NCBI RefSeq assembly: GCF_002892535.1
Contig: NZ_CP024847.1
Coordinates: forward strand, 434,001-498,000
Source: Aquella oligotrophica
GTDB taxonomy: Bacteria; Pseudomonadota; Gammaproteobacteria; Burkholderiales; UBA11063
Direction of reading: 5' to 3'
Length of the DNA: 64,000 nt
The notes under the pieces are model-generated. The model was not told the origin of the DNA and did not search any database. It was given only the letters and a program-made list of their open reading frames with translations. The position numbers were made by a program, and so were the translations under genes. The stretch's first letter is position 1, and each line of letters opens with the position of its first letter. Positions 9,008 through 25,009 of this stretch are shown in pieces.

Positions 9008-9008
9008 T

Positions 9009-10307
9009 TTATTTATCCTTGATTATCACATGTGGAGATTGATTACCTATTAGTAGCACTTGTTCTACAATACCCATTTTGTTGCGAGCGGCAAATTCAT
9101 CCCAAGTTATCTGTTGTGTTCCCTGTTTGCCAACCAGTACAACTTCATCACCAAGTTTAACCGGATTTTGCTGATTTTCATCGGTAATATCAATTACCAA
9201 CATATTCATTGAGGTTTTGCCAATTACCGGGAATTTCTGCCCACGAATTAATACTACCGCACTTTCCTGAAAAGCGTATTGTGGGAAGCCATTATAATAA
9301 CCGATTCTAAGCGTTGCTGTAGTAGAAGGTTTATCGCTTCGAGTGTACTGCATGGCATCATAATTAATTGGTGAATGCGGTGGAACATTCCGTTCGATAA
9401 TGGCGACGGTGCTTTTGAAAGAAGGCATTACGGGTTGTAATACATGATGTGGATCTTGCCTATCATCCAAATCTTCACCATAAGTTAGTGAGCCCACTCG
9501 AACCATATCCTTGCGTGCCCATGGAAATTTAGCTGCAGCACCAGAGTTTGCCACATGTTGAATAACACTTTTATCTAGATTAAGTTCTTTAACAACCGAT
9601 TCAAAAGTATCTAATTGTGCTCTAGTTGCGGTATAGTCAATTGGGGGGTCTTCATAATCTTTGGCAAAATGGGTCATTATTCCAACTAGCTTGAGGTTAG
9701 GTAGGGTAATCGCTTGTTTTATCTCATTAACATCTCTGAATCCCATTCGTCCCATGCCTGTTTCTACATTGACATGGATAGCTATTATGACTTTTCTACC
9801 CAGTTTTTTCGATAATTCAACGGCAGTATCAGATAGCATTTTGGCTTCTTCAAGCGAACCTGCGATTTCTTCTACGTTCCAGTTTCCTCTTTGGGCTTCG
9901 ATTAATTCGGCTTTCGTCACCGGTGCAATTCGTAGTAAATGTGTTTTTTTATGTGCGGCTTTGATTCGGTTGGAGAGTAAGCGGAATTCATTATTATCGA
10001 CAGCTGCGATATAGTCAACATTGGCTTTTAATGCTTCGGCGATCAGATTATCTATGCCATGTCCGTATGCATTTGACTTCATTACTGCGCAAATTTTTAC
10101 ATTCGGTCCAACCATTTTGCGGATTTCTTGTAGATTATGATAATATGCAGCTGGACTTATTTCAACAAAATTCGTTGCAGGTGTCGTTTTTTGGTTAATT
10201 GTTATGTTTCCACGAGGATCTGCGTTAGCTACAGAATCAAGTGCAAAAGAATTTAATGAACTTAATGTAACAGCTCCAAGTATTGTCAGTAAACGAAGTT
10301 TATGCAT
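9009..10307 (-). CDS. Periplasmic broad-specificity amino-acid racemase (Alr/Bsr-like)
   Basis: A PLP-dependent alanine-racemase-fold enzyme of 432 aa. The N-terminal signal peptide (hydrophobic to about 20, cleavage near SFA-LD) sets it apart from cytoplasmic Alr. The PLP lysine is in ICAVMKSNAYGHG (K77). HVNVETGMGRMGF, GIMTHFAKD and HVANSGAAAKFP follow the barrel, and VGKTSMNMLVIDIT is in the C-terminal beta domain. The layout resembles the Vibrio BsrV class that releases D-amino acids for cell-wall editing. The substrate range is inferred. The SD sequence is GGGAAGAG. It is followed by hemW with a 1-bp gap. Confidence 0.85.
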   Translation of the reverse strand: MHKLRLLTILGAVTLSSLNSFALDSVANADPRGNITINQKTTPATNFVEISPAAYYHNLQEIRKMVGPNVKICAVMKSNAYGHGIDNLIAEALKANVDYIAAVDNNEFRLLSNRIKAAHKKTHLLRIAPVTKAELIEAQRGNWNVEEIAGSLEEAKMLSDTAVELSKKLGRKVIIAIHVNVETGMGRMGFRDVNEIKQAITLPNLKLVGIMTHFAKDYEDPPIDYTATRAQLDTFESVVKELNLDKSVIQHVANSGAAAKFPWARKDMVRVGSLTYGEDLDDRQDPHHVLQPVMPSFKSTVAIIERNVPPHSPINYDAMQYTRSDKPSTTATLRIGYYNGFPQYAFQESAVVLIRGQKFPVIGKTSMNMLVIDITDENQQNPVKLGDEVVLVGKQGTQQITWDEFAARNKMGIVEQVLLIGNQSPHVIIKDK

Positions 10308-10356
10308 AGTCTCTTCCCTCTTAAGTATGCAGTATTAATTTTGATCTTCATTTTAT

Positions 10357-10372
10357 CATATCCGCGAATATG
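10357..10372. promoter_or_regulatory. Palindrome in the bsr-like/arsR divergent region (candidate operator)
   Basis: A 16-bp imperfect palindrome, CATATCCGCGAATATG, with one mismatched pair. It lies between the divergent racemase and arsR-type genes, upstream of the arsR -35 and beside an AT-rich possible -10 of the racemase (minus strand). It could be bound by the adjacent ArsR-family protein; this is inference only. Confidence 0.3.
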
Positions 10373-10390
10373 GGCTAAATGTGCTTTTAT

Positions 10391-10420
10391 TTGACAGAAT
10401 TAACAATTAAAACCTAAAAT
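10391..10420 (+). promoter_or_regulatory. Putative promoter of arsR-like operon
   Basis: Consensus TTGACA at 10391-10396, an 18-bp spacer, TAAAAT at 10415-10420, 29 bp before the ATG. Confidence 0.6.
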
Positions 10421-10449
10421 AATGTAATAAAACAAACTTTGGAGTTGCT

Positions 10450-10749
10450 ATGTTATTAGATGAATTAACCGCACTAAAAGAAAAAGCCGAGATAGCGGTA
10501 AATCTTTTAAAAAAAATGGCGCATAAAGATCGGCTTCTGATTTTATGCCATCTTGTGGGTGGTGAATTAAGTGCTGGAGAGCTTTCACGACTCTCGCTCC
10601 TTAGTCAATCAGCATTTTCACAGCATCTAGCAATTTTACGCAATGATAATCTGGTGAAAACACGTAAAGTATCGCAAACAATTTATTATTCCTTAGCCGA
10701 TGATAATGTGATCAAAGTACTTGAAGTATTAAAGCAGCTTTATTGCTAG
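10450..10749 (+). CDS. ArsR-family regulator, BigR/YgaV/SqrR persulfide-sensor type
   Basis: A winged-helix repressor of 99 aa. The order LLKKMAHKDRLLILCHL, then SAGELSRLSLLSQSAFSQHL, closely follows E. coli YgaV and BigR. It keeps their two sensor cysteines: C33 in helix 2 and C99 as the last residue. In those proteins they form a tetrasulfide bridge on exposure to persulfide, which releases DNA. No classical metal-site CxC is present. It heads an operon with two exported proteins, 22 bp to the next gene. Sensing of reactive sulfur is inferred from the cysteine pair. No sulfide-oxidation genes are adjacent. Confidence 0.8.
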   Translation: MLLDELTALKEKAEIAVNLLKKMAHKDRLLILCHLVGGELSAGELSRLSLLSQSAFSQHLAILRNDNLVKTRKVSQTIYYSLADDNVIKVLEVLKQLYC

Positions 10750-10771
10750 CCTCTTTTTTAAGTTTATAACT

Positions 10772-11251
10772 ATGTCTAAAATTATTTTTTGTGTTCTGGC
10801 TCTGTTTTCTGCTTCCGTGTATGCGGATATATCAACCGATTGTAAGGCTGATGCCAATGGTGTTATTCATTGTAATGCACTTGAAAGTGGTAATAATGTA
10901 ATGGGGCTGTCCTGTACGCCCAAAGGTGATGGCAAGACAAGCTGTAGTGGTAATTATGTTGAAAATGGGCAACATAATCTGAATATGGACTGCAAATCAG
11001 ATGCCAAAGGAGGTACTAATTGTAGTGGTAAATCCTCCGATGGAACTACATTTGCGATGAATTGTGCTACTTCTACTGACCATAAATTAAAGTGTAGCAT
11101 TGGCGATAGTCTTGGTGAAAAAGTAACCATGAATTGTAGCTTGGGGGCAAATGGTGTACCTATTTGTACTGGGCTTGATAATAAAGGTACTAATTATGAT
11201 ATTAGCTGTAGCGGACCCAATGCCAAATCAACAAATTGTCTGATTAAGTAG
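10772..11251 (+). CDS. Exported protein with six cysteine-pair repeats
   Basis: A 159-aa protein with a signal peptide (MSKIIFCVLALFSASVYA, cleavage before DIST). The mature part is six tandem units of about 24 residues, each with one cysteine pair C-x(8-10)-C, usually starting (M/L)(D/N/S)C and ending CSG or CTG. This gives 12 regularly spaced cysteines in about 140 residues. The spacing suggests repeated beta-hairpins held by disulfides, or a thiol or metal store. I do not recognise the family. It is probably cotranscribed with the ArsR-type gene upstream and the exported gene 6 bp downstream. Confidence 0.75.
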   Translation: MSKIIFCVLALFSASVYADISTDCKADANGVIHCNALESGNNVMGLSCTPKGDGKTSCSGNYVENGQHNLNMDCKSDAKGGTNCSGKSSDGTTFAMNCATSTDHKLKCSIGDSLGEKVTMNCSLGANGVPICTGLDNKGTNYDISCSGPNAKSTNCLIK

Positions 11252-11257
11252 TTCAAA

Positions 11258-11980
11258 ATGAGAAGACTAATATTATCTTGCCTGCTATTTAGTATTAATT
11301 ATTCTTATGCAGTAGAAATTAAAGATCTTGGCTATGAAGTAAAAAATTCTAGTAATCAGTTTGGTAGTGTGATGATTAAACATTCTGATAACGATGGTGA
11401 TAGTCTACTTCTGAATAAGCAAAAGATTAATCTAGGTAAGGAGGGTAATTCATTTACCCTAAATATGTTATCGCTGATAAATTACCCTAAAGCCTCAGTC
11501 TATATAATTCTTGGTGGTAGTGGTGGTACAATGGATATGGATAGTAATATTGCGTGTAAATTCCTAACAATAACTGGTAAAAATGCGTATCAGGTAAGTG
11601 CGTTAACCTACTGTCCGGGAAATTATAAAGATGCGGTCCAAATCAAGAATAATCTGATCATCGTAAAATATTCAAATATTGCACCGTATGCAGAAAGTAC
11701 TGATATTGGTAGCCTTAGCTATGATTATACTAAAAACAAAGTTGAAATTATCACTCATCTAAAACGTGACTCATACTATAAAAAGAAGTTTGCTAGTTAT
11801 ACGCCAGTACAAATCTATCAAGAAGCGGCAGCTGATGGCAATATCGATAAGGACACCGGGCTAATTGCAAGCTGTCATATCTGTGGTATGTATGGTTATA
11901 AATACTGCTTTAAATTTAAAGCATTAGCTAATCCACCACATGATAAATACTATACTATACTTCAGAAATCCTGTAATTAG
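11258..11980 (+). CDS. Exported hypothetical protein with CxxC
   Basis: A 240-aa protein with a signal peptide (MRRLILSCLLFSINYSYA, cleavage before VEI). No family recognised. The sequence is mostly beta-like, with a glycine-rich turn (ILGGSGGTMDMDSN), a cysteine pair in the middle (about 100 and 120), and a C-terminal cluster SCHICGMYGYKYC plus a final Cys. It starts 6 bp after the cysteine-repeat gene, so they are almost certainly one operon. The C-terminal CxxC could be a redox or metal site. Role unknown. Confidence 0.7.
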   Translation: MRRLILSCLLFSINYSYAVEIKDLGYEVKNSSNQFGSVMIKHSDNDGDSLLLNKQKINLGKEGNSFTLNMLSLINYPKASVYIILGGSGGTMDMDSNIACKFLTITGKNAYQVSALTYCPGNYKDAVQIKNNLIIVKYSNIAPYAESTDIGSLSYDYTKNKVEIITHLKRDSYYKKKFASYTPVQIYQEAAADGNIDKDTGLIASCHICGMYGYKYCFKFKALANPPHDKYYTILQKSCN

Positions 11981-12027
11981 AGTTGTGATATTAATCCATT
12001 CTAATAATTTTCACATTAGAGATCTGT

Positions 12028-12033
12028 TATAAT
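12028..12033 (+). promoter_or_regulatory. Possible -10 of the luxR-type gene
   Basis: TATAAT, 48 bp before the ATG, without a good -35 at 16-18 bp. The sequence just upstream (TTAGAGATCTG) is only weakly like the TAGACA inverted repeat found at three downstream genes. Confidence 0.3.
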
Positions 12034-12081
12034 TTCGATTCTTGGGCAAACTTTATTCTATAGTCTTCAGGATATGCAATT

Positions 12082-12849
12082 ATGGCAAATTTCAGTCATG
12101 AACCATTTTTAAATGAATACATAACTAATAATTTCATTCAATTACTTGATCTTCCTATGTACTCATGCTTATATGATCAAAGTTTTAAACTTGTGATTTG
12201 TACCAATCAGTCGGCAAAATCATTGGGATACGAGTTTTGGGAAAACGCTGTTGGCATCAGTTATGAAGATGATAGCTGCCATGTGCTTGCCAGAGCAATT
12301 TTTGGTTCAAGTTATAGTGATGAACATAAAGACTCTATCAATAAATATGCTGCAATGATACTTGATTTCCAGAAAGATGTATTTTTGAATAAACGGGCAA
12401 TAAGCTTCTTCGATTTATTACCGTACAATAACCAGTTTAATAGTTACCTTGTCACATATGTTCCAATTGTCAATAAAGCTGGTGAGGTGGTTGCAATTCA
12501 GAGTCACGCGATTGAGTCCAAGTTTTTTGGTTTCCAGGAGCACTTTTATACTCTCTATGATAGCGGAGATACCAAGAATAATTTTCCGGACAAAATAGAA
12601 CTGACTAGACGGGAAGAGGAGGTTATGTTTTTACTAGCCAATGGTTTAAATCAGGAGCAAATAGCGCAAACCTTACAAACTAGCCGAAGTACTATCGCCA
12701 CAATTATCGCTACCAAACTATGTGTGAAATTTAATATTCCAGGCTCTAATACTGGTTATCTAACCAAGCTTGCAATGGAACGTGGTTATTTTCAATACAT
12801 TCCATCGTCCTTGTTTAAACCATTTGTCGTGCCAATGATTAAGGGTTAG
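12082..12849 (+). CDS. LuxR-type transcriptional regulator with PAS-like sensor
   Basis: A 255-aa protein. Residues 18-145 look like a PAS domain (DLPMYSCLYDQSFKLVICTN, GISYED, then an LVTYVPIVN..GEVVAIQ strand pair). Residues 173-222 are a LuxR/GerE helix-turn-helix: ELTRREEEVMFLLANGLNQE, then IAQTLQTSRSTIATIIATKL. No receiver domain and no acyl-homoserine-lactone pocket motif are seen. The gene ends in a strong hairpin at 12887. It lies directly upstream of three genes with a common inverted repeat at an activator-like position, so it is the best candidate for their regulator. The ligand is unknown. Confidence 0.8.
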   Translation: MANFSHEPFLNEYITNNFIQLLDLPMYSCLYDQSFKLVICTNQSAKSLGYEFWENAVGISYEDDSCHVLARAIFGSSYSDEHKDSINKYAAMILDFQKDVFLNKRAISFFDLLPYNNQFNSYLVTYVPIVNKAGEVVAIQSHAIESKFFGFQEHFYTLYDSGDTKNNFPDKIELTRREEEVMFLLANGLNQEQIAQTLQTSRSTIATIIATKLCVKFNIPGSNTGYLTKLAMERGYFQYIPSSLFKPFVVPMIKG

Positions 12850-12886
12850 CCATAATTATTGATTATTGTTTTCATCACTTTTTTAG

Positions 12887-12919
12887 CTAAGGGAGTAGAT
12901 ATTTTATCTACTCCCTTAG
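12887..12919 (+). terminator. Hairpin after luxR-type gene
   Basis: A perfect 14-bp stem (12887-12900 with 12906-12919) with a 5-nt loop, followed by a weak T-run. The core GGAGTAGATA...TATCTACTCC recurs in the larger hairpin at 16706-16760. Confidence 0.7.
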
Positions 12920-13034
12920 TATTTCTACGAATTAGGTCTTGCCATTAAATTCAATTTTATCGTCACAAACTGTTTATTTTCAATGTGCTAAGTGTCTTAT
13001 CTAGGTCTGCGCCTAGTGCTTAAATCCAGACTGT

Positions 13035-13079
13035 TAGACATTTTTGTCTATAGTTATCTTTCTGATTAAAGAATAAAAT
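13035..13079 (+). promoter_or_regulatory. Regulon operator copy 1 plus -10
   Basis: The perfect inverted repeat TAGACA-TTTT-TGTCTA at 13035-13050 is followed by TAAAAT at 13074-13079. Centre-to-centre distance is 34 bp. The hexamer expected as -35 (TAGTTA at 13051-13056) is poor and abuts the repeat. This is the arrangement of a class II activator site near -42. The ATG lies 77 bp after the repeat. Confidence 0.6.
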
Positions 13080-13127
13080 GATGACATGAGATAGATAAAG
13101 TAATCAACTTCTAAAAAGGTCTGAAAA

Positions 13128-15161
13128 ATGAAAACAACTAAATTAAAACAATTAGTATGTGTATTAACCAGTAGCTTAATTTTAGTAGCATGTAATAACA
13201 ATGTTGGTGGTACAGCTAATACAAATGCAGCAACAGTAAAATCAACGGCATCACAAGCTAATACCCAACGAGCAGTAATAAAAGTAGCTCCAGAAGCATC
13301 AGATGCTCCAACTAACTATATTAGTAAAACAATTGTTGATTCTTTTGCTGGTAATTTCTTTGCTTTTCCGGGTAATTTTGGATTTAATCTACTATCCGGC
13401 TGGTTAGGCGGTCTTATTTTTCAAGATGATAGCCAGCAGCAAATATTAGATGGTTTAAAAGATATTCAGGATAAATTAGCAGAAATGGATAAAAAGCTGG
13501 ATAAATCACTTAATCTAGAAAATGATATCCTAAATTTGGTAAAAAATTTCTACAATGCCCAGATGAAAGCAAATTTTGAAGAAGTATTAAAAGAACCAGA
13601 TGCGACTGCGCGGGAAGTGCAAGAGCAATATCATCTATATACTCAGCAAAATATTTTTGGCAATAGTTCTTCAAGTATTAGTGCTAAGGATCTGGATGCT
13701 CTATTTGATTATGCAGCCAGCCAAAAAGCCAGAAAAGATGATGTTGAAGAGGTAATTGGTAAAAATAACTCAAGCATTTTGTTTTCACGGTTTAAAGCAA
13801 AATATATCAATACCAACAGCGGTGGCGCTTCTTTCTTTAATTTATTAAAAAGCCGGAAAGAAATGTATGTTGAAGCATTATTTAGCGGAGTTCCTGAAAA
13901 TAACTTTATGGCTAAGATAGATTATTATAATCAGCAGAATATGCATTATCAGAGCGAATTATCTGGTGCATATCAGAAACTTTATAATATACAGCTAGCT
14001 CAGCTGGCATATATGTACGCGCTTGGAATCAATGTTGATCTAAATTCATTGCCACAACTTGATTCAAAATGGCACGGTAAAGAAGGATTTAAAGAAGCTG
14101 TTAAACTGCTAAACCAATACTATAATGGTGAATATGTACAACTGGGTGAAAATCTGAAGGCAGGATTTGCCCCAATTAGTAATCAGGATCTATATACGAG
14201 GGTTAATAATTTGTTTGCTACAGAACTACTTGATAATAATACATTTAATAGCAATAAACCAGCTGTAGGTCAATGTGCAATTAGTGAGATGGTATTTGAC
14301 AGGCTTGATAATGAACATGGCATTTTGCGTTTAGGTGCTAAATGTATGATTGCACAGAATTCTAACAAAACAGCTAAATTCAGCAACGTACACCAGGATA
14401 TATTATATAAATACGCAGGCACAAAAATTATGGGAACTACCTATGATCACTTACGTTTTGATACTAACTATCCTAAAATGTTGGTATATACTAATCGTGG
14501 GGCATATAGCTTTAATTCTGATGATTTGAGTGTTTTTAGTGCTAAAAATCAGATTTCAACTGCATGGAACTGGCACGATGTAAATAATGTAAATATCATG
14601 GCTGACTCGCTAGTGAGTGATAAGTTACACAACATTGACAGATTTTATTGGGCTGCTGCCAACGTAGCATTGGGTGAAGATGTTAGTGTCTATCCTGAAC
14701 GCTATCTGGATAACCGAGATAAAATCAGTGGTAATGACAGACAAATTTTGCCATGGAAAGATTATGGACTGGATAAAAACGGTTACGGGGTGACAATGAA
14801 CTTCCCTGGTAGTAAAGAAACGCTATATAATCAAGATATTCCACAAAGTTGGTATGCTCAATGGCATTTGATTTCTTATAATGGAAAACAGGCCTTATTA
14901 AAAATCGAATTTATCAACTCTAACTCTTCTGCACAATGGATTGGGATTGGTTGTCTTAATACGGATAATGATCAAAGCTGTCATCGTGAAAATAAAAATA
15001 CTTTAGTCTGGGATGACGGTACCAAATTGACTCTACAAAATGATAAATTCTTTGATTTCGATGATAACCAAATTGAGTATCGCTATAATAATTCTCCTAG
15101 CGAGTGGAGAATTAGCGGTACTTCAAATGAAAACTATGAAGTATTACCTAAAAAAGACTAA
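13128..15161 (+). CDS. Large putative outer-membrane lipoprotein, coiled-coil (regulon member)
   Basis: A 677-aa protein. Lipoprotein signal: MKTTKLKQL, a hydrophobic stretch, lipobox LVAC with Cys22. Asn at +2 does not suggest retention in the inner membrane. A glycine- and aromatic-rich hydrophobic stretch lies at about 85-100 (FGFNLLSGWLGGLIF). It is followed by the amphipathic segment ILDGLKDIQDKLAEMDKKLD and a long helical region to about 330, then a beta-like C-terminal third with two cysteine pairs. A hydrophobic helix followed by a coiled coil also occurs in the lipoprotein at 16963. It recalls pore-forming toxins, but I recognise no family. The promoter carries the shared inverted repeat. 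Confidence 0.7.
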   Translation: MKTTKLKQLVCVLTSSLILVACNNNVGGTANTNAATVKSTASQANTQRAVIKVAPEASDAPTNYISKTIVDSFAGNFFAFPGNFGFNLLSGWLGGLIFQDDSQQQILDGLKDIQDKLAEMDKKLDKSLNLENDILNLVKNFYNAQMKANFEEVLKEPDATAREVQEQYHLYTQQNIFGNSSSSISAKDLDALFDYAASQKARKDDVEEVIGKNNSSILFSRFKAKYINTNSGGASFFNLLKSRKEMYVEALFSGVPENNFMAKIDYYNQQNMHYQSELSGAYQKLYNIQLAQLAYMYALGINVDLNSLPQLDSKWHGKEGFKEAVKLLNQYYNGEYVQLGENLKAGFAPISNQDLYTRVNNLFATELLDNNTFNSNKPAVGQCAISEMVFDRLDNEHGILRLGAKCMIAQNSNKTAKFSNVHQDILYKYAGTKIMGTTYDHLRFDTNYPKMLVYTNRGAYSFNSDDLSVFSAKNQISTAWNWHDVNNVNIMADSLVSDKLHNIDRFYWAAANVALGEDVSVYPERYLDNRDKISGNDRQILPWKDYGLDKNGYGVTMNFPGSKETLYNQDIPQSWYAQWHLISYNGKQALLKIEFINSNSSAQWIGIGCLNTDNDQSCHRENKNTLVWDDGTKLTLQNDKFFDFDDNQIEYRYNNSPSEWRISGTSNENYEVLPKKD

Positions 15162-15182
15162 CATTTCAAAGAAAGTTCGATG

Positions 15183-15217
15183 AATACCCCCAATTGATTA
15201 AGTAGTTGGGGTATTTT
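15183..15217 (+). terminator. Terminator after first lipoprotein gene
   Basis: The stem AATACCCC(C)AA / TTGGGGTATT with one bulged C (15183-15193 with 15206-15215) is followed by a short T-run. It ends 2 bp before the next operator. Confidence 0.65.
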
Positions 15218-15219
15218 AT

Positions 15220-15264
15220 TAGACAAAACTGTCGATTGTTTTGCCCCAAGTTTTATCGGATAAT
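15220..15264 (+). promoter_or_regulatory. Regulon operator copy 2 plus -10
   Basis: The inverted repeat TAGACA-AAAC-TGTCGA at 15220-15235 has one mismatch. GATAAT is at 15259-15264, again 34 bp centre to centre. TTGTTT (15236-15241) occupies the -35 position with 17-bp spacing. The ATG is 77 bp after the repeat, as in copy 1. Confidence 0.6.
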
Positions 15265-15312
15265 CTTATCTATAAAATACTTTAATAAACTGTTAATCAA
15301 TAAGGAACAAAA

Positions 15313-16656
15313 ATGAGAAGAATTATTGCGGCTTCATTTATTTTATTTCATATTACTGCCTTTGCTGGTCGTGGGGCAACATTGGTAATTGATAATGCTA
15401 CTAAAGAATATCTTACCGTAAAATCAGTTAGTTCAAGCTGTGTTATCGGTCAAGAACAAATAAACACCACCATTGGATCAGTTAATGTTGCAAACATTTA
15501 TCTTGAAGCTTCAAATGATATATTAAAAGGCTGCTCATATAGCACCTCAAAAGGAGAAGTTGAACTATATAGCGCGAAAGGCGATTTTATTGCCCGCACC
15601 TCTTATAGTATTTCTAATACTGGGACTAACGCGTGGGTAAGCTCTCAAGGGGCTAATTTTGTAACTAATTCTTATGCACACAATACATATGATCGTGGAT
15701 CAGATAAAGATTTAATTGTAATTAATGTTACCCCTGCGGATAAAAATATACAGGAATATGCAAACTGGATGGGGAATATGAAAGATCAATTACAAAATAA
15801 GTCATTATCAACACTAGTATTACCAGGAACACATGACTCTTTAACTAATGATTTATCAACCAGTCTATGTGAAGCGGATCCTGATTCGGCGTGGTATAAG
15901 AAATTCGGAATGGGATTTGCTAAAGCTCAGTATCTGGATATGTCACAACAGTTAAATCGGGGAATTCGCTATTTTGATATTCGTTTATGTCATCAGAATG
16001 GTAAAAACTATATTTCTCATACACTATTAAGCAAAAAGAGCTTTGAAGCTTCATTAATGCAACTAGATTCATTTTTAAATGAGCACCCAAAGGAAATGGT
16101 TATTCTTGATTTACAGCATATCTATGGTTATGACAAAAATAGCCTGTCCACACTTCTGGATTTTATTCAGGTAAAATTTGATGGCAGAATTATCAGCTAT
16201 GATAAATTTAATCCTAGTAGTAAGTTAGCAGATATTTGGAATAGCAACTTTGGTTCAAATTTAATTGTTATTCTGCCTGATACTGAGCTGGCACAAGAGA
16301 TCATTAAAAATCCAAAATATTCATTTGCGTGGCCACGTAATACGATTAATTCTCCATGGCCAAATACTACAAATACTGGAGAATTAATTAATAAAAATAG
16401 TCAATATCTTGAAAATCGCAGTTTCGATAGTTTCTTTGTCAATCAATTGCAATTAACTCCAGATGGTGATTTCATCACAAAAAACCTGAGCTATAGTCTA
16501 GAGAGAATGGCTTATGAAAGCCTAGATAAAGTTTATCAATGGCAATGGAATAACTTACAAAGCGGAAAATTAAATATTCTGATGCGTGACTGGAGCGATG
16601 GTTATGATGGCACTATTTTGGCAATAGAAGCTAACAAGGTCAATAGAGAACTCTGA
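15313..16656 (+). CDS. Secreted phosphatidylinositol-specific phospholipase C-like protein
   Basis: PI-PLC X-domain enzyme, expected to cleave phosphatidylinositol or GPI head groups. It has 447 aa and a signal peptide (to about AFA-GR, residue 18). Residues 20-140 form a beta-rich N-terminal domain with two cysteines. The catalytic domain starts near 150: LVLPGTHDS (H174, D175), RGIRYFDIRL (R224), ISHTLLS (second catalytic His, H236) and EMVILDLQHI. The substrate is inferred. Bacterial PI-PLCs often act on eukaryotic membranes. It lies between two lipoprotein genes that share its operator type. It ends in an unusually long hairpin. Confidence 0.85.
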   Translation: MRRIIAASFILFHITAFAGRGATLVIDNATKEYLTVKSVSSSCVIGQEQINTTIGSVNVANIYLEASNDILKGCSYSTSKGEVELYSAKGDFIARTSYSISNTGTNAWVSSQGANFVTNSYAHNTYDRGSDKDLIVINVTPADKNIQEYANWMGNMKDQLQNKSLSTLVLPGTHDSLTNDLSTSLCEADPDSAWYKKFGMGFAKAQYLDMSQQLNRGIRYFDIRLCHQNGKNYISHTLLSKKSFEASLMQLDSFLNEHPKEMVILDLQHIYGYDKNSLSTLLDFIQVKFDGRIISYDKFNPSSKLADIWNSNFGSNLIVILPDTELAQEIIKNPKYSFAWPRNTINSPWPNTTNTGELINKNSQYLENRSFDSFFVNQLQLTPDGDFITKNLSYSLERMAYESLDKVYQWQWNNLQSGKLNILMRDWSDGYDGTILAIEANKVNREL

Positions 16657-16705
16657 ATTATTAAGTCTTTATGGCAAGGCATAATAAGGCAAGGAGCTAG
16701 TCAGG

Positions 16706-16760
16706 AAAGATGTATACGAAAGGAGTAGATAATTTATCTACTCCTTTCGTATACATCTTT
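16706..16760 (+). terminator. Very long perfect hairpin after the phospholipase gene
   Basis: Two 27-bp arms (16706-16732 and 16734-16760) are perfectly complementary and separated by one base, so the real loop is the AT-rich tip. The flank after it is only TTT then GGG, a weak T-run. The inner part matches the hairpin at 12887-12919. Confidence 0.65.
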
Positions 16761-16865
16761 GGGTTAAACTATACTATTAAGTTTGTTTGCATTATAAAAT
16801 ATAATTATATTACAGTATAATACATTACAAAAATGCTAATTATAAAATCTACCTATAGCGGCTAT

Positions 16866-16910
16866 TAGACATTTTTGTCTATAGTTATATTTTTTGCCAA
16901 AGAATAAAAT
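16866..16910 (+). promoter_or_regulatory. Regulon operator copy 3 plus -10
   Basis: The perfect repeat TAGACATTTTTGTCTA at 16866-16881 is identical to copy 1. TAAAAT at 16905-16910 is again centred 34 bp away. The downstream AGAATAAAATGATG is also shared with copy 1. The ATG is 81 bp after the repeat. The rest of the 306-bp gap before this gene holds the hairpin at 16706 and AT-rich sequence with nothing else recognisable. Confidence 0.6.
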
Positions 16911-16962
16911 GATGTCATCGAATAGATAAACCAATTAACTATTAATAAAAAGGGAAATTTCA

Positions 16963-19272
16963 ATGAAACCAAATAAATTAAAACAACTATCATGTGTTCT
17001 TGTAAGTAGTCTGATGCTGGCAGGAAGCATAACCCTTACTGGTTGCATTAATAATAGTGGTGATGATGGCGATAATAGTCGGGCAGGAAATAATAGCTAT
17101 TATGTTAAACCGATTAAGCTAAGCGTAGTTAATACCGAGCAAACTACATTTACCAAAATAATTATTACAGATAAACAAAATAAGGAAATTCTAAATCAGA
17201 GTTTTAGTTGCGCTCCAGGTGCGACTTGCCCTCTTGATTTTAATGAGCGTTTACAAGCTCCTATCACGCTTAAATTTTATAATCAGAATAAACTAATCAC
17301 GGCTTATACCATAGTTGATGTCGCGGGTAATTTCGGTAAAATAGAAACCAGTGATGTGATGTTGGGAACATATGTTTATAGACAGCTTAAAGCCAAAGAT
17401 AAGCTACTTGCTGCAAATCTAAGTAGTCGCTTGGATACATTTTTTGATTGCTATTGTAGCCCAGACAAACGCCCGGATAATTTTGAAGAATTAGGGCTTT
17501 ATTATAAAGCAATGGTGGTACAAGGGAAACAAACCGATGATCAATTTTATACCAAGCTGCTTGCTGATTTAAATGCAGGTAAAAGACTTCCGGGTGGTCC
17601 TTTCTCAAAAAGAAAAAAACAACAGGCAGAGCTAAAGTCATTAGCGCTAAATCGCGCCCAAGTCCAGCTTAAATCGGCAAATGGCTCAACCTGTAGCCAA
17701 TATACCTCTGGTATTTTAACTGCGTTTTCAGCCCTTAAATTATTCCCAATCCCAGGCTTTAACGGTCCATTTGATTTTGCTGATCGGGTGGTAAAAGGAG
17801 CCTGTGATAGTTTTCAGGGCGATGTACTTAATGGTTTAGATGAAATCAAAAATAAACTTAACGAAATGGATGCCAAGTTGGATGCCATCGGCTATCAGAT
17901 TCAGGAACTGGCAGATAAAATGGATCATCAAAATTTAAGCAGAAATATTTCTGAAATTAATAACAAGATAGAAGAATGGTCAGCATTACGTGATTCTTAT
18001 TATCAGATCTTAAATGGTGGTCATTATAAAAACTTTAGTGAGTTTTTACAAAAAAATGGTAATGTGGCGGGTGTTATGCAAAAAGACGGATCAGCAAAAA
18101 TATTTCTTACTTCCCAATTGAAGAGTTTTAATAGTTTCTATAATCAAATCAACGAGTCTAATCGACTGGACTCAATTCGACAATCATTAGTGTCTCTTTG
18201 TGGTACCGCAGAAAACATTCACGAAGAGGTATTGAGTCGTAGATTCCAATGTAATCTAATAGCTTCGGATTTGATTGCTAAATTAACCAGTACCGCACAG
18301 GAAGAGAAGATTATTTTGAATGATATTTCCAGTGCGATTATGAAAGATCCAGGGTATCAGGATATTCTTAAAGATAGCTCAATTCTACCGCCAGTTGGTA
18401 CATCATGGGAAAAGGTTGATGCTACTGTATCACAGCAACAGATTGATAAACTTAAAGTTGCGCAATCAACTTTTGCTAGTAATGGCATTCCATTTATTCC
18501 TTATCAGGGCTTATCTGAAGAGCTACAAAAAAATATTGCTACAATTGGTTGTAATTATAAAGATACGGATATTCCAAATATTACCTACTGGAAGGCTGCG
18601 GTAGAGCCATCTAAACCTTGGAATACATATATTTCAGTTATTTGCAAAAATAAAAACGGTCAGAATGAGGAAAAAGAGGTTTATTCTAATTATAACTATT
18701 TGCAGGAAAATGACGATAGTGTAAAGAATGTGCTTGGTGTAGTTGCTTCCAATAAGAGTATTATTAATGCCAAAAATGAATGGGTTCATCATCTTGGAGT
18801 GAAAAATAATGGAACTGATAAGAGAAACTTTAGCATAGGAATAGAATTGTCTGTACCCGATGGAAAACTTCTATCTTTTAATTCTGATACAGATCATAAT
18901 TTTGATGATCAAATTATTAATTCAAGTATATATAATAATCCGCTAAGATGGCTGGATGACAAAGGTATGTTATTTACGGAAGGGGTTATTCCTAATGGTG
19001 GTAACCTTAACTATACAGTTCCGATGTCTTACATTTATAATGGCTCTACTTATATATTTATGCTAAAAATTCAAGGTGAATATTATGATCAACGATACTA
19101 TAGGGTGCGCCTAGGTGTAGTTTGTACTACCTCTGACTGTCAGCAAATTGACCCTGTTTCAGGTGGGACAATGATTGATCATTCGCAAATAAAATTTAAC
19201 TCTGGTTTAAATGTTCGGATTGATGGTGGTGGTAAGGATGTAACTGGTCAACGGTATCTACACATCTGGTAA
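16963..19272 (+). CDS. Large putative lipoprotein, coiled-coil, related to the 13128 product at its N-terminus
   Basis: A 769-aa protein. The signal MKPNKLKQLSCVLVSSLML resembles the product of 13128, with lipobox LTGC and Cys28. Residues 50-130 look like a small beta domain. A hydrophobic stretch at about 250-270 is followed by VLNGLDEIKNKLNEMDAKLD and further heptad-like helices to about 500. The last roughly 270 residues are beta-like with paired cysteines. No family recognised. Gene and signal look duplicated with the 13128 gene while the bodies differ. A membrane-active or adhesin-like role beside a PI-PLC is inference. Confidence 0.7.
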   Translation: MKPNKLKQLSCVLVSSLMLAGSITLTGCINNSGDDGDNSRAGNNSYYVKPIKLSVVNTEQTTFTKIIITDKQNKEILNQSFSCAPGATCPLDFNERLQAPITLKFYNQNKLITAYTIVDVAGNFGKIETSDVMLGTYVYRQLKAKDKLLAANLSSRLDTFFDCYCSPDKRPDNFEELGLYYKAMVVQGKQTDDQFYTKLLADLNAGKRLPGGPFSKRKKQQAELKSLALNRAQVQLKSANGSTCSQYTSGILTAFSALKLFPIPGFNGPFDFADRVVKGACDSFQGDVLNGLDEIKNKLNEMDAKLDAIGYQIQELADKMDHQNLSRNISEINNKIEEWSALRDSYYQILNGGHYKNFSEFLQKNGNVAGVMQKDGSAKIFLTSQLKSFNSFYNQINESNRLDSIRQSLVSLCGTAENIHEEVLSRRFQCNLIASDLIAKLTSTAQEEKIILNDISSAIMKDPGYQDILKDSSILPPVGTSWEKVDATVSQQQIDKLKVAQSTFASNGIPFIPYQGLSEELQKNIATIGCNYKDTDIPNITYWKAAVEPSKPWNTYISVICKNKNGQNEEKEVYSNYNYLQENDDSVKNVLGVVASNKSIINAKNEWVHHLGVKNNGTDKRNFSIGIELSVPDGKLLSFNSDTDHNFDDQIINSSIYNNPLRWLDDKGMLFTEGVIPNGGNLNYTVPMSYIYNGSTYIFMLKIQGEYYDQRYYRVRLGVVCTTSDCQQIDPVSGGTMIDHSQIKFNSGLNVRIDGGGKDVTGQRYLHIW

Positions 19273-19298
19273 TCTTATTATTAAGTACCTAAACAAAT

Positions 19299-19321
19299 AG
19301 GGCAGTACCTACTGCCCTTTA
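19299..19321 (+). terminator. Terminator after second lipoprotein gene
   Basis: The stem AGGGCAGTA / TACTGCCCT around CC (19299-19318), then TT and an AT-rich tail. The next small gene starts 27 bp after it and may depend on read-through. Confidence 0.65.
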
Positions 19322-19344
19322 TCTTAGCTATAGGAAGTTCTATT

Positions 19345-19746
19345 ATGAATAAAAAAGTGATTACTATCTTATTGGCATGTGTCGGTATAGCACACGCCTA
19401 CAATTTTGATGGAACATATACTGGCAATGGAAAAAATATTGAAACAATTAAAATTAACAAGGGCAAAATTAGTATTGTCAGTAAATGCTCTTCAGGTAAA
19501 TGTAAATGGGAAGGCGCTGCTGTCAAATCATTAAGGATTAATAATGGGAATACGTTGGTATTTGAGTTAGCTCCACTTAGCAATGATGGAGTTATTTTTT
19601 ATCCTACTTTAGTGCTAACACCAACACACGATTCGCAGTCGCTCCAAGCAGTAACGATTACTTATAGAAGCTATAGCAAGGACGCGCTAGCTGAAAGTGA
19701 TGACCCGGGATATGGTTCATATTCTGAAATTCTGATTAGAAAATAA
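19345..19746 (+). CDS. Small exported hypothetical protein
   Basis: A 133-aa protein with a signal peptide (MNKKVITILLACVGIAHA, cleavage before YNFDG). The mature part looks all-beta: FDGTYTGNGKN opens it, with alternating strands (ETIKINKGKISIVSKC, SLRINNGNTLVFEL) and one close cysteine pair (KCSSGKC). The size and opening FDGTYTG resemble small lipocalin-like or lysozyme-inhibitor-like beta proteins, but I cannot assign a family. It lacks the TAGACA operator. It sits between two terminators at the end of the lipoprotein/phospholipase region. Confidence 0.6.
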   Translation: MNKKVITILLACVGIAHAYNFDGTYTGNGKNIETIKINKGKISIVSKCSSGKCKWEGAAVKSLRINNGNTLVFELAPLSNDGVIFYPTLVLTPTHDSQSLQAVTITYRSYSKDALAESDDPGYGSYSEILIRK

Positions 19747-19773
19747 ATTAATCACTTCTTGAGTCATTCGGCG

Positions 19774-19806
19774 AACAGGGTAGTATTTACTACCCTGTTT
19801 CTTTTT
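19774..19806 (+). terminator. Terminator before the mra cluster
   Basis: A 12-bp stem AACAGGGTAGTA / TACTACCCTGTT with loop TT (19774-19799), followed by TTCTTTTT. The core differs from the terminator at 19299 by a compensatory C-G to T-A change. Confidence 0.85.
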
Positions 19807-19905
19807 AAGATTCCCTAAATTTGTAGTTGTTTACCTACAATTGTTGGTAAAAATCTATTAGTAACTATAAAACCTTTGAAATATTTCTGCTTTTTTGCCA
19901 ATTAT

Positions 19906-19935
19906 TTGACAGTGCTGAAGTTTTCGTGATAAAGT
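19906..19935 (+). promoter_or_regulatory. Putative mra (dcw) promoter
   Basis: Consensus TTGACA at 19906-19911, an 18-bp spacer, TAAAGT at 19930-19935. The predicted transcript start near 19942 falls just upstream of the GTGGGGTA repeats. Confidence 0.5.
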
Positions 19936-19944
19936 GTAGCATTG

Positions 19945-19991
19945 TGGGGTAATGTGTCTATTTGTGGGGTAAATTTAATGCTCGGTGGGGT
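19945..19991 (+). promoter_or_regulatory. Three TGGGGT repeats, candidate MraZ sites
   Basis: TGGGGT occurs at 19945-19950, 19965-19970 and 19986-19991, the last inside the mraZ coding region. E. coli MraZ binds TGGGN repeats every 10 bp upstream of mraZ. Here the period is 20 and 21 bp, two helical turns. A degenerate TGTCT at 19955 would fill one intermediate position. Confidence 0.5.
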
Positions 19992-20427
19992 AACTCATCT
20001 TAATCTTGATCCGAAAAATCGGCTGGCTATACCAGCTAAATATCGCGATATCCTCCAGAGTCTTTCTGGCGGCAAGATAGTTATTACTCTTGAGTCGGCG
20101 CAATGCCTCTTAATCTATCCTGAAAACGAATGGGGTGTTGTGCGTGATAAAGTGCAGAATTTACCAAATTCGCTGCATCCATTAGTGAAAAGTTATCAGC
20201 GCCTAGTCCTTGGTTACGCTGAGAATCTTGAAATTGACAAGTCGGGACGGGTTCTCCTTCCTGCTATATTGAAGCAGATGGCAAAGTTAGATAAGGAAAT
20301 AGTATTGGTTGGGATGGGCAATAAATTTGAGCTTTGGGATAAAAATAGCTGGCATCAGGAAACAGAAAAAGCATTGCAGTCTTCAGCAGAAGATTTGGCG
20401 CAGCTACTTAACGGGTTTAATTTGTAG
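19978..20427 (+). CDS. mraZ: Transcriptional regulator MraZ
   Basis: A SpoVT/AbrB-fold DNA-binding protein that represses its own division/cell-wall operon. I use the ATG at 19978, giving 149 aa that begin MLGGVTHLNLDPKNRLAIPA like the family. A TTG at 19942 would add 12 unusual residues. The two MraZ repeats are visible: LDPKNRLAIPAKYR (about 9-22) and LEIDKSGRVLLPAILK (about 83-98). It is first in the cluster, 6 bp before rsmH. Confidence 0.94.
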   Translation: MLGGVTHLNLDPKNRLAIPAKYRDILQSLSGGKIVITLESAQCLLIYPENEWGVVRDKVQNLPNSLHPLVKSYQRLVLGYAENLEIDKSGRVLLPAILKQMAKLDKEIVLVGMGNKFELWDKNSWHQETEKALQSSAEDLAQLLNGFNL

Positions 20428-20433
20428 TAGGTT

Positions 20434-21354
20434 ATGCATTATTCAGTCTTGCTTCAAGAGTCGGTTGAGTTATTAAATATTAAGTCTGATGGCATTTATA
20501 TAGACGGCACTTTTGGACGTGGTGGCCATAGCCGAGCAGTTCTTGATAAGTTAGGCGTAAATGGTCGGTTGATTGCATTTGACAAAGATCCGGAAGCAAT
20601 CACACATGCAAGGCAGAATTTTTTTGATAGTCGGTTTAAAATTATTCATGCTAGCTTTGCAAGTATTAGAAAGCAGTTATTTGATCTGGGAATAAACCAA
20701 GTTGACGGAGTCTTGCTTGATTTAGGGGTTTCTTCACCACAATTAGATAATGCAGAGCGAGGATTTAGCTTTCGCCATGATGCTCCGCTCGATATGCGGA
20801 TGGATAATAGTAAAGGAATCACGGCGGCAGAATGGTTATTGATCGCTAGTGAAGAAGAAATGGTGGATGTTTTCTGGCGTTATGGTGAAGAGCGTTTTTC
20901 ACGAAGAGTTGCTAAAGCAATTTTGCGTGAGCGTGAAGTCAGGTCATTGGCAACTACACATCAATTGACAAAGTTGATTGAAGCACAGATTCCATACCGT
21001 GAGCGAGGGAAAAATCCGGCAACCAGAGTATTTCAGGCAATACGAATTCATATAAATAACGAACTAGGTGATCTGGAACAAATACTTTCAGATGTTCCGC
21101 AGATGTTAACTTTGAATGGACGATTTGTAGTTATCAGCTTTCACTCTTTAGAAGATCGTTTAGTTAAAATTGCATTTAACGAGCGTGCCTCAGCTGATAA
21201 ATTGCCAAAATGGGCAATGGTAACTGGTGCAGAAGCAGAGTTTGAGGTAATAGCCAAAAAGGTTCGCGCTTCTATGGTTGAAGTTGATGAAAATAGTCGG
21301 AGTAGAAGTGCCGTATTACGTTGTCTTGAACGACTAAAAGTTACACAAAAATAA
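20434..21354 (+). CDS. rsmH: 16S rRNA m4C1402 methyltransferase RsmH
   Basis: SAM-dependent N4-methylation of C1402 in 16S rRNA. It has 306 aa, normal length. Motifs: MHYSVLLQESVELL at the N-terminus, DGTFGRGGHSRAVL (SAM loop), FDKDPEAI, DGVLLDLGVSSPQLD, ERGFSF..PLDMRMD, FQAIRIHINNEL and FHSLEDR near the C-terminus. It sits between mraZ and ftsL in the conserved order. Confidence 0.97.
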   Translation: MHYSVLLQESVELLNIKSDGIYIDGTFGRGGHSRAVLDKLGVNGRLIAFDKDPEAITHARQNFFDSRFKIIHASFASIRKQLFDLGINQVDGVLLDLGVSSPQLDNAERGFSFRHDAPLDMRMDNSKGITAAEWLLIASEEEMVDVFWRYGEERFSRRVAKAILREREVRSLATTHQLTKLIEAQIPYRERGKNPATRVFQAIRIHINNELGDLEQILSDVPQMLTLNGRFVVISFHSLEDRLVKIAFNERASADKLPKWAMVTGAEAEFEVIAKKVRASMVEVDENSRSRSAVLRCLERLKVTQK

Positions 21355-21363
21355 GAAATTATT

Positions 21364-21633
21364 ATGGATAATGTACTTAAATTATTTAATCTTCTATTGG
21401 TGGCAATACTGATTGGCAGTGCTTTTAAACTGATAAATCAGCGTTTTCAGGCAAGAAGTTATTATATGCAGTTATCTCAATTGCAAAATAAAATGGATGG
21501 GATAAACAAGGAGTACACCCGTTTAGAGATTGAAGAAGGTACTTACTCTTCCGGTTTGGCAGTTCAGGATTATGCTTTGCATAACTTGGGGCTGGTAGAG
21601 GCAGATAAACAACATATTTTGGAATTAAAATAA
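21364..21633 (+). CDS. ftsL: Cell division protein FtsL
   Basis: Small bitopic divisome protein of 89 aa that acts with FtsB and FtsQ to control FtsWI. One transmembrane helix at about 6-23, then a periplasmic coiled-coil stretch (QLQNKMDGINKEYTRLEIEE). Sequence similarity is low, as usual for FtsL. The call rests on size, topology and location between rsmH and ftsI. The stop is one base before the ftsI ATG. Confidence 0.88.
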   Translation: MDNVLKLFNLLLVAILIGSAFKLINQRFQARSYYMQLSQLQNKMDGINKEYTRLEIEEGTYSSGLAVQDYALHNLGLVEADKQHILELK

Positions 21634-21634
21634 A

Positions 21635-23371
21635 ATGATAGCAAATGACGATATCCAAAAGCTGTACTGGCGAATAAAAAATGGTGATGCAGCAGAAATA
21701 AAGCCGGAGTCATCCAACGCTTCATTGACAAAAGGTAGAGATCGCGCTAGTATCATAAACTATATTGCATTAGGGTTAACTTGTGCCGTTTTATTGCGTC
21801 TTGCATATATTAACACGGTTAGTAGTAAATTCCTATCTGATCAGCTAAATACTCGAGTTTTGCGAACAGTGAAATTAACTGCAATGCGTGGAACTATTAC
21901 TGATCGAAATAATCGTCCATTAGCAGTTAGTACCCCAGTTGATTCCATCTGGGCTGATCCATCTGAAATGGAGAACCTGAGTGAGGCTCAGGTAACCCAG
22001 CTTGCCAAAGCAATGAATATTTCAGTTGCTGAATTAAATACTAAATTGAATGATAAAAATAAGACCTTTGTTTATTTGAAACGGGCGATGTCGCCACAGC
22101 AGGCAAGAGATGTTTTAAATTTGAATATCGACGGTATTTATAGTTTGCAAGAGTTTAAGCGATATTATCCAAGTGGTGAGGTAACTGCTCACGTGGTCGG
22201 TTTTAATAATATTGATGATAAAGGTGCTGAGGGCATTGAGTATGCTGATGACAAACTTTTGCAGGGAGAAGCTGGGTCTAAACAGATTATCCGAGATTTG
22301 CGTGGTCATGTAGTAGAAAATGTGGGAGTTATGCAACCAGCCAAAAATGGACAGCAGATTGCACTTTCAATTGATAATCGGATACAATATATTGCATATA
22401 CTGCATTAAAAGCACAGGTTGAAAAATCTGCTGCTAAGGGTGGTTCGGCTGTAGTTCTTGATGCGCGTACTGGAGAGGTTCTGGCAATGATTAATATGCC
22501 AACTTATAATCCAAATAATCGAGGTGGTATTGATCCTGACATGCTAAAAAATCGTGCCGCAGTTAATGTTTATGATCCGGGTTCTATCATGAAACCATTG
22601 GTAATAGCAAAAGCTTTGGATGATAAAATTGTTACGCCTCAAACCGTCTTTGATACTCATCCATATGTGGTTGGACCAAAATTAATCAAAGATGATCATG
22701 CCTATCCACGTATGACTGTTGCAGAAATTATTCAGCATTCAAGTGATATCGGTACATCAAAAATTGCCATGAAATATAAGCCGCAGCCTTTATGGGAATA
22801 CTATCGTAAAATAGGTTTTGGTCAAAAACTTGGAACTGGATTTCCTGGGGAAACCAAAGGTATTTTAAATGACTGGCGTAAATGGTATCCTGTAGATCAG
22901 GCATTAATGTCATATGGTTATGGTATTTCGGTAAGTTTGTTTCAGATGGCTCATGCTTATACTATCTTTACCAATAATGGCTGTTTGCTTCCGGTTAACT
23001 TTAATAAACTACAGTCAGGACATACTCCAACTTGTGAGCAGGTTATTTCACCGGGTACGGCAGCAACCATGCGTTCAATTCTAGCTGCAACTACTGAGGA
23101 AGGAACTGGGAAGAATGCTCGGGTTGCGGATTATACAGTTGCGGGTAAAACAGGTACTGCACAGATTCTTGAACATGGGCGTTATACTGACAAAAAACAT
23201 ATTGGTTCATTTGTTGGGTTTGCACCAGCGCTTAATCCTAGAATAATTGTTGCTGTAATGATAGATCAGCCTACCAAAGGACTTTATTATGGTGCACAGA
23301 CAGCTGCGCCTGTATTTGCCGCAATTACCGAGCCAACGCTAAAAGTGCTTGGGGTTCAGCCGGATAAATAG
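21635..23371 (+). CDS. ftsI: Peptidoglycan transpeptidase FtsI (PBP3)
   Basis: Septal class B penicillin-binding protein of 578 aa with an N-terminal membrane anchor at about 41-58. RGTITDRNNRPLAVS opens the non-catalytic domain. The transpeptidase motifs are SIMK (S317, K320), SSD (369-371) and KTGT (503-506). The second motif has Asp where FtsI proteins usually have Asn (SxN); Asp is found there in class B PBP2 enzymes. The start is 1 bp after the ftsL stop. Confidence 0.96.
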   Translation: MIANDDIQKLYWRIKNGDAAEIKPESSNASLTKGRDRASIINYIALGLTCAVLLRLAYINTVSSKFLSDQLNTRVLRTVKLTAMRGTITDRNNRPLAVSTPVDSIWADPSEMENLSEAQVTQLAKAMNISVAELNTKLNDKNKTFVYLKRAMSPQQARDVLNLNIDGIYSLQEFKRYYPSGEVTAHVVGFNNIDDKGAEGIEYADDKLLQGEAGSKQIIRDLRGHVVENVGVMQPAKNGQQIALSIDNRIQYIAYTALKAQVEKSAAKGGSAVVLDARTGEVLAMINMPTYNPNNRGGIDPDMLKNRAAVNVYDPGSIMKPLVIAKALDDKIVTPQTVFDTHPYVVGPKLIKDDHAYPRMTVAEIIQHSSDIGTSKIAMKYKPQPLWEYYRKIGFGQKLGTGFPGETKGILNDWRKWYPVDQALMSYGYGISVSLFQMAHAYTIFTNNGCLLPVNFNKLQSGHTPTCEQVISPGTAATMRSILAATTEEGTGKNARVADYTVAGKTGTAQILEHGRYTDKKHIGSFVGFAPALNPRIIVAVMIDQPTKGLYYGAQTAAPVFAAITEPTLKVLGVQPDK

Positions 23372-23379
23372 GAGTAGCT

Positions 23380-24873: not shown

Positions 24874-25009
24874 TCGGTACTTAATCTACCCAAATAATAA
24901 TGCGGAAAAAAATAATAATCGATAAATTTTGCAGCAGGAGTGATTAGTGCTTAGGGGTTATTTAAAAATATAATATAAAACTACCATAATCAGGGGAAGA
25001 TTAAAAATC

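Follow-up and report, generated by a model that had tools for sequence, protein, structure and literature searches.

The window analysed here is a stretch of 64,000 nucleotides from Aquella oligotrophica, a tap-water bacterium. It holds, all on the forward strand, a regulator gene and three genes for predicted exported proteins. The regulator (12082..12849, 255 amino acids) is a LuxR-type protein, probably of the PAS-LuxR kind, and resembles the quorum-sensing receptor VqmA, going by its GerE match and by VqmA matches in profile and Foldseek searches. After it come lip1 (13128..15161), encoding a 677-residue lipoprotein with lipobox LVAC; a gene for a secreted protein of 447 residues resembling phosphatidylinositol-specific phospholipase C (PI-PLC), with a signal peptide, H174 in a GTHD motif and H236 in ISH (15313..16656); and lip2 (16963..19272), encoding a 769-residue lipoprotein with lipobox LTGC, a GDDG motif and a hydrophobic segment followed by a coiled coil. 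The subject of this work is the probable control of these three genes by the regulator.

Putative operators and promoters in the window

Each of the three genes is preceded by an inverted repeat, or dyad, that can be read directly in the forward strand. Before lip1 this is TAGACATTTTTGTCTA (13035..13050), before the PLC-like gene TAGACAAAACTGTCGA, with one mismatch (15220..15235), and before lip2 again TAGACATTTTTGTCTA (16866..16881). The dyads abut the -35 position, which is occupied by TAGTTA (13051..13056), TTGTTT (15236..15241) and TAGTTA (16882..16887) respectively. After a spacer of 17 bp follow the -10 hexamers TAAAAT (13074..13079), GATAAT (15259..15264) and TAAAAT (16905..16910). From dyad centre to -10 centre is 34 bp in all three promoters, which leaves 23 bases between dyad and hexamer, and the ATG is 77, 77 and 81 bp from the dyad.

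This geometry, with TAGACA-N4-TGTCTA as the dyad and one copy carrying a mismatch, had been described in the first-pass annotation, and it is confirmed. The remark that the -35 hexamers are poor holds too; five of the nine sites found in the whole genome (see below) have a TTG start there.

The repeat alone is not rare: within the window there are four matches to TAGACA-N4-TGTCTA at up to two mismatches, where 2.73 are expected. Genome-wide there are two exact places, both in the window, and eight one-mismatch places, one of them in the window. A -10-like hexamer (at least 5/6, with A2 and T6) occurs at 266 of the 16,029 upstream positions examined, or 1.7%. What is unusual about the window sites is the fixed spacing between dyad and -10, not the repeat itself.

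The promoters of lip1 (13035) and lip2 (16866) align nearly base for base over some 90 bp. This means that the window supplies about two independent cases and not three; the recurrence at three promoters that had been claimed is present, but two of the three are copies.

Sites elsewhere in the genome

The genome is a single contig of 2,820,660 bases, and all of it was scanned. Six close paralogues of the 12082 regulator are found, at 40-55% identity. A search with the regulator returns 34 places at E<=10, itself and more distant paralogues included. GerE matches number 50 places at E<=1 and 27 at E<=0.001; another genome of the same order likewise has 27 at the latter threshold, so this count is not unique.

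The lipoproteins have their own paralogues. There are two full-length ones of lip1 (249262 and 317361), each with a close paralogue of the regulator next to it, and a single one of lip2, at 2450880, in a cluster with two close regulator paralogues. As these come from searches of the whole genome, their placement in regulator clusters is free of the bias of fetching around regulators.

The 6-4-6 layout recurs before paralogues or their neighbours at four further sites, with the -10 at exactly 34 bp: TCGTCA-N4-TGACTA, TAGTCA-N4-TGACGA, TAGATA-N4-CATCTA and TAGACA-N4-TATCTA. These four and the three from the window were combined into a degenerate pattern, which hits 37 places in the genome (51 strand-rows), fewer than its reversed control. 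All 37 flanks were read. At nine places a -10 that matches in 5/6 positions or better stands 34 bp away and an ATG follows after 69-88 bp; all nine lie in four clusters holding the 12082 regulator or paralogues at 42-55% identity. Two of them, 2450154 and 2452804, were not used in building the pattern. In only one case among the other 42 strand-rows (246753) does a hexamer with A2 and T6 that reaches 4/6 or better stand at this spacing, and no open reading frame (ORF) is there.

This was the whole-genome scan for the repeat at its spacing that had been suggested. Counts of the dyad alone are not above the reversed control. All nine genes behind these sites begin with a signal sequence or lipobox, as judged by eye from the translations.

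The half-sites vary by cluster. In the window they are TAGACA with TGTCTA or TGTCGA, at 248602 and 317358 TAGTCA with TGACGA, and in the clusters at 2.44-2.46 Mb TAGACA or TAGATA with CATCTA or TATCTA.

There is also a second kind of site. Ten places in the genome match TAGACA-N4-TGTCTA at up to one mismatch, and two of these look like chance. Four others read TATACA-N4-TGTCTA (666011, 1912212, 2072130 and 2283406; L005, L006, L007 and L009), stand before lipoprotein genes and have a -10 23 or 24 bases after the dyad. The nearest 20 kb on either side of each hold no GerE match at E<=1, so regulation in trans apparently occurs. Across 11 genomes of the genus, TAKACA-N4-TGTCTA is found at 17 places (18 strand-rows, against 14 for the reversed control). 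By a looser test, which asks for a hexamer of 4/6 or better 23 or 24 bases after the dyad, 15 of the 17 have one and the six further one-mismatch places of the present genome (L205-L210) have none. TATACA-type sites occur in seven of the 11 genomes, counting one TAGACA place in G022. The paralogue 16339 was considered as their regulator, which is not supported: its orthologue is seen only in G019.

Other genomes of the genus

A profile built from six close regulators was searched in 150 genomes at E<=1e-20. It matches 11 of them, namely the present genome and 10 of 22 further listed members of the genus, and it matches no genome among the 127 from outside.

Twenty first stretches around related regulators were examined by taking, for each ORF, the 300 bp before it and scoring them against a matrix made from the nine sites of the present genome. 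Eight sites reach 14.9 or more (a ninth row reads one of these in reverse), and every one has a -10 hexamer with 5/6 or better at the exact spacing. They stand 66-125 bp before secreted or lipoprotein genes.

A scan that is agnostic of the operator sequence was run on 440 ORFs from the present genome and the related loci. It yields 26 dyad/-10 pairs at spacing 23, while 23 other spacings give 3-12 pairs with a mean of 7.8 (Poisson 2e-7). Without the seven defining sites 19 pairs are left (5e-4).

In a tree of 43 regulators, a site is found near 18 of the 34 in the main clade and near none of the nine in the other clade. The regulators with no nearby site may in part act at a distance, recognise sites not seen here, or be diverging. 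One regulator gene (L192:8693-9457) has TAGACA-N4-CATCTA with a correctly spaced -10 at 90 bp upstream of itself, which suggests autoregulation. Some regulators are longer, at 454-456 residues, the PAS-LuxR part being preceded by roughly 190 additional N-terminal residues (L180:331-1701, L188:4810-6174, L189:9212-10582 and L190:2385-3749).

The regulator

The GerE domain of the 12082 protein scores 28.2 bits against a cut-off of 23.5, and all 29 aligned family members match it at E<=0.1. Pfam PAS_4 is matched by 3 of the 29 at that threshold, and not by the 12082 protein. When the regulator profile is compared with all PDB chains, the best matches are VqmA structures (6ugl, 6kju, 6ide and 7dwm), with E around 1e-13 over profile positions 93-255. 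The Foldseek top eight for the predicted model are VqmA chains as well, with template modelling scores of about 0.3; the model is of low confidence (mean predicted local distance difference test, pLDDT, 52). What aligns is the later half of the PAS domain together with the helix-turn-helix of GerE and the C-terminal tail. The adjacent protein is of the LuxR type, and its nearest solved relatives are PAS-LuxR receptors.

Two other labels were tried and dropped. The protein is not a LuxR that binds N-acyl homoserine lactones, as Autoind_bind (PF03472) is not among its six Pfam matches at E<=0.1. Nor can it be filed as VqmA itself, given that TAGACA-N4-TGTCTA is neither of the palindromes that VqmA uses.

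VqmA senses 3,5-dimethylpyrazin-2-ol (DPO), which its residues F99 and K101 contact. They align to V124 and Y126 of the 12082 protein and are not kept, which makes a ligand other than DPO more likely. In Vibrio cholerae, DPO synthesis requires threonine dehydrogenase, according to PMC7387800. The genome studied here encodes this enzyme (489 bits, curated cut-off 458). In the scan of the clusters of this genome, no TAG-type site is shown before the 12082 gene.

The target proteins

The PLC-like protein aligns with PDB 1aod (E 7.5e-6) and 2plc (1.7e-5), including its GTHD and RYxDIR motifs; both are structures of bacterial PI-PLC, from Listeria. Its score for Pfam PI-PLC-X (PF00388), 20.9-21.7 bits, is under the cut-off of 23.1. 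It also differs from 1aod and 2plc by some 120 extra N-terminal residues, for which the best matches (E 0.045 in PDB, 0.019 in Pfam) are not convincing.

The lip1 family has seven members in the fetched loci and the lip2 family four. For neither is there a Pfam match above cut-off or a confident structural match. The lip1 model, of low confidence, has a helical region and then a beta-rich part; its likeness to Vip3/Cry-like helical toxins is at the level of common helical bundles. Tested as one family in hhalign, lip1 and lip2 reach a probability of 47%, over the hydrophobic and coiled-coil stretch, and they were kept as two families. The idea that lip2 is an alpha-xenorhabdolysin subunit A was rejected, as NCBIfam NF033928 scores 17.7 bits where 125 are needed, over residues 292-347 only. 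In a sister cluster, the target lipoprotein at L089:9954-11516 (genome 2444953) is a CD39-type nucleoside phosphatase (PF01150, E 1.1e-22).

Recognition helix and operator base 14

The recognition helix of the 12082 protein reads SRSTIATII. Across the family it contains R-X-T/S, where X is variable (S203 here) and aligns to K185 of VqmA, a numbering that agrees with PMC8284805.

At the loci of other paralogues, dyads of the same layout have other sequences. Among them are TCATCA-N4-TGATGA (L174), TCAACA-N4-TGTTGA, CTACCA- and CTACTC-N4-TGGTGA, TCATCA- and TGAGCA-N4-TGCTTA (L180) and TAAGCA-N4-TGCTCA (L183). Held-out loci add TCACCA- or TCACCT-N4-TGGTGA (L188, L189, L190), CAACCA-N4-TGATGG (L197) and, in L192, three TAG-type sites.

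In the sites judged real, serine at X goes with C at operator base 14 (9 loci, 21 sites), and glycine or glutamate goes with T (8 loci, 11 sites). L180 has two regulators and is entered twice. Some of the sites come from inspection by eye once the scans were done: L180:2059 and 6975, the two of L179, and those at L189 and L192:14130.

A number of candidates were left out of this count. The L185 site has C at base 14 and a local regulator with N; it resembles the L178 sites of the same genome. For L200:426, a dyad with correct spacing and C at base 14, the helix was not extracted. L198:8128, L102 and L183:4313 are correctly spaced but were judged chance. Other spacing-23 pairs of the agnostic scan have no T-N3-CA or similar core. 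L204 overlaps L180, and the TATACA-type sites were omitted altogether.

L175 has serine and C but sits inside a clade of glycine/T regulators that is supported at 100/100 in the tree, so at least two residue-base changes are forced. The tracking of base 14 by residue X is a lead and not proof, because related loci are counted together.

Interpretation

Class II activation by LuxR- and CRP-type activators is the natural comparison, and it is suggested here by the position of the dyad. The features of such promoters are present: a dyad abutting a poor -35 near -42, and a near-constant distance to the -10. With the start position reckoned from the -10, the dyad would span about -51 to -36, its centre near -43.5.

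It is quite probable, judging from these sequences, that the 12082 regulator acts through the dyads at 13035, 15220 and 16866, by VqmA-type class II activation of secreted and surface genes. The gene would encode a cytoplasmic, ligand-controlled receptor. A dimer of it would bind the 16-bp dyad, with half-site TAGACA, immediately upstream of the -35 at the three promoters, and in its ligand-bound form would recruit RNA polymerase. Expression of the two surface lipoproteins and of the secreted PI-PLC-like protein would thereby be switched on. The first-pass annotation had proposed that the adjacent regulator switches on this module; the recurrence of dyad and spacing with paralogues and the class II fit speak for it, with activation itself a matter of deduction.

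The system would be one of several paralogous cassettes of receptor and secretome, each receptor having changed along with its operator; so far such cassettes have been met in this genus alone. That each cluster is privately wired is less certain than the action of the 12082 regulator on its own three promoters. Tentative, and somewhat doubtful, is a wider picture in which Aquella and its relatives run several small-molecule circuits side by side, with partial insulation between them. VqmA-type receptors that arose by duplication, several of them with an operator variant of their own, would each command their own arsenal of surface lipoproteins and secreted enzymes (PI-PLC-like, CD39-type nucleotidase, GH18-like), and the helix position aligned to VqmA K185 would set operator base 3/14.

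Several results weigh against the main reading, that the 12082 regulator acts through its dyads. Dyads by themselves do not stand out: TAGACA-N4-TGTCTA at up to one mismatch has 10 forward matches in the genome and 8 in the reversed control, the degenerate pattern gives 23 and 28 rows against 73 and 94, and a third count gives 13 and 13 against 16 and 29. The 16 held-out loci, most of which adjoin less closely related regulators, do not show the excess at spacing 23 (5 pairs in 171 ORFs, mean 3.6). Sites were found in 3 of 17 stretches of the present genome besides the window, in 8 of the 20 first related stretches and in 5 of the 16 held-out ones. Spacing is 24 at both L179 sites and at a single site in each of L189 and L192, and one of the seven lip1-family genes, L180:4447, has no dyad that could be found. 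Of the 43 regulators in the tree, 25 have no site found nearby, among them close paralogues with the same helix, like 16339 and its orthologue. Which dyads count as real is the author's judgement, several being read by eye, and with regulators that are all related the residue-base association rests on few independent changes, two of them forced.

The alternative that survives best is that the dyads are bound by another paralogue, for example another serine-type regulator, or by several, so that the three genes would belong to a wider regulon common to the paralogues and not to a private one. The recognition helices of close paralogues are almost identical, the operators of the four clusters differ by only one or two bases per half, and the TATACA-type sites far from any GerE match point to action in trans. 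The half-sites do differ between the window, the 248602/317358 pair and the 2.44-2.46 Mb clusters, and on balance this alternative is rather unlikely.

A good deal less likely is that the 12082 regulator is a repressor that blocks RNA polymerase. LuxR-type proteins can be activators or repressors, and the dyad does abut the -35 position. However, with such poor -35 hexamers a repressor would be acting on a weak promoter, and the conservation of the dyad/-10 spacing in other genomes is what a regulator that touches polymerase would require.

An unrelated regulator family could also bind the dyads, with the LuxR-type genes being neighbours by chance. With 27 such genes at E<=0.001, chance adjacency is not negligible, but all nine correctly spaced TAG-type sites are in clusters with the close subfamily, and operator base 14 follows the helix residue, at L175 too; this explanation is improbable. 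That the promoter shared by lip1 and lip2, near-copies as they are, is a mere duplicated stretch with no regulatory meaning hardly deserves belief, since dyad and spacing are conserved also at the PLC promoter, in three other clusters and in other genomes, within promoters that otherwise differ.

Relation to known systems

Activation by the 12082 regulator would be closest to what VqmA does. The half-PAS, GerE and tail parts align with VqmA of Vibrio cholerae and of vibriophage VP882, both DPO receptors; VqmA structures have been solved for a vibrio and a vibriophage protein. PMC8284805 describes a GG-N6-CC palindrome at PvqmR and GG-N9-CC at Pqtip, and residues in and after the helix-turn-helix that set promoter choice between two VqmA proteins. 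The Aquella system differs in its TAGACA-N4-TGTCTA operator, in having secreted proteins as targets where VqmA has a small RNA or a phage gene, and in its many paralogues within one genome.

Large sets of PAS-LuxR paralogues are not new. In three Photorhabdus species, PAS4-LuxR solos make up 80 of 100 LuxR solos, most of them in large regulator gene clusters, and their function and signals are called unknown in PMC4235431. What is different here is that several regulators of the close subfamily adjoin lipoprotein genes with an identifiable operator.

The lux box is unlike the TAGACA-N4-TGTCTA operator. No report of this regulon was found in the literature searched, whose coverage leaves out bioRxiv and most subscription journals. 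PMC6612550 yielded no passage on LuxR, transcriptional regulators, lipoprotein, phospholipase, quorum or secretion in a term search.

With operators, targets and a candidate residue for specificity all in view, this set of paralogues allows a test of how quorum-type receptors lose cross-talk after duplication. It also provides, for the large PAS-LuxR families, a case in which targets may be predicted from sequence; for Photorhabdus, PMC4235431 calls the signals and clustering of such families unknown. The targets look like equipment that a little-studied freshwater genus secretes or carries on its surface. If the pairing of helix and base is true, the genus preserves a readable code of protein-DNA specificity in mid-divergence.

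Further observations

Long hairpins at 12889-12920, after the regulator, and at 16706-16760, in the gap between the PLC-like gene and lip2, share GGAGTAGATA...TATCTACTCC and are probably terminators. Their arms hold the operator-like TAGATA/TATCTA. A search of window positions 8000-26000 against Rfam gave nothing at gathering scores.

Two lipoprotein genes elsewhere, C1:117048-119627 (-) and 588305-590410 (+), are each near a LuxR-type gene. Their printed N-termini (38 residues) are identical, so this is perhaps a recent duplication.

At 9009-10307 (-) the window also encodes an alanine racemase with an apparent signal peptide, which is perhaps exported.

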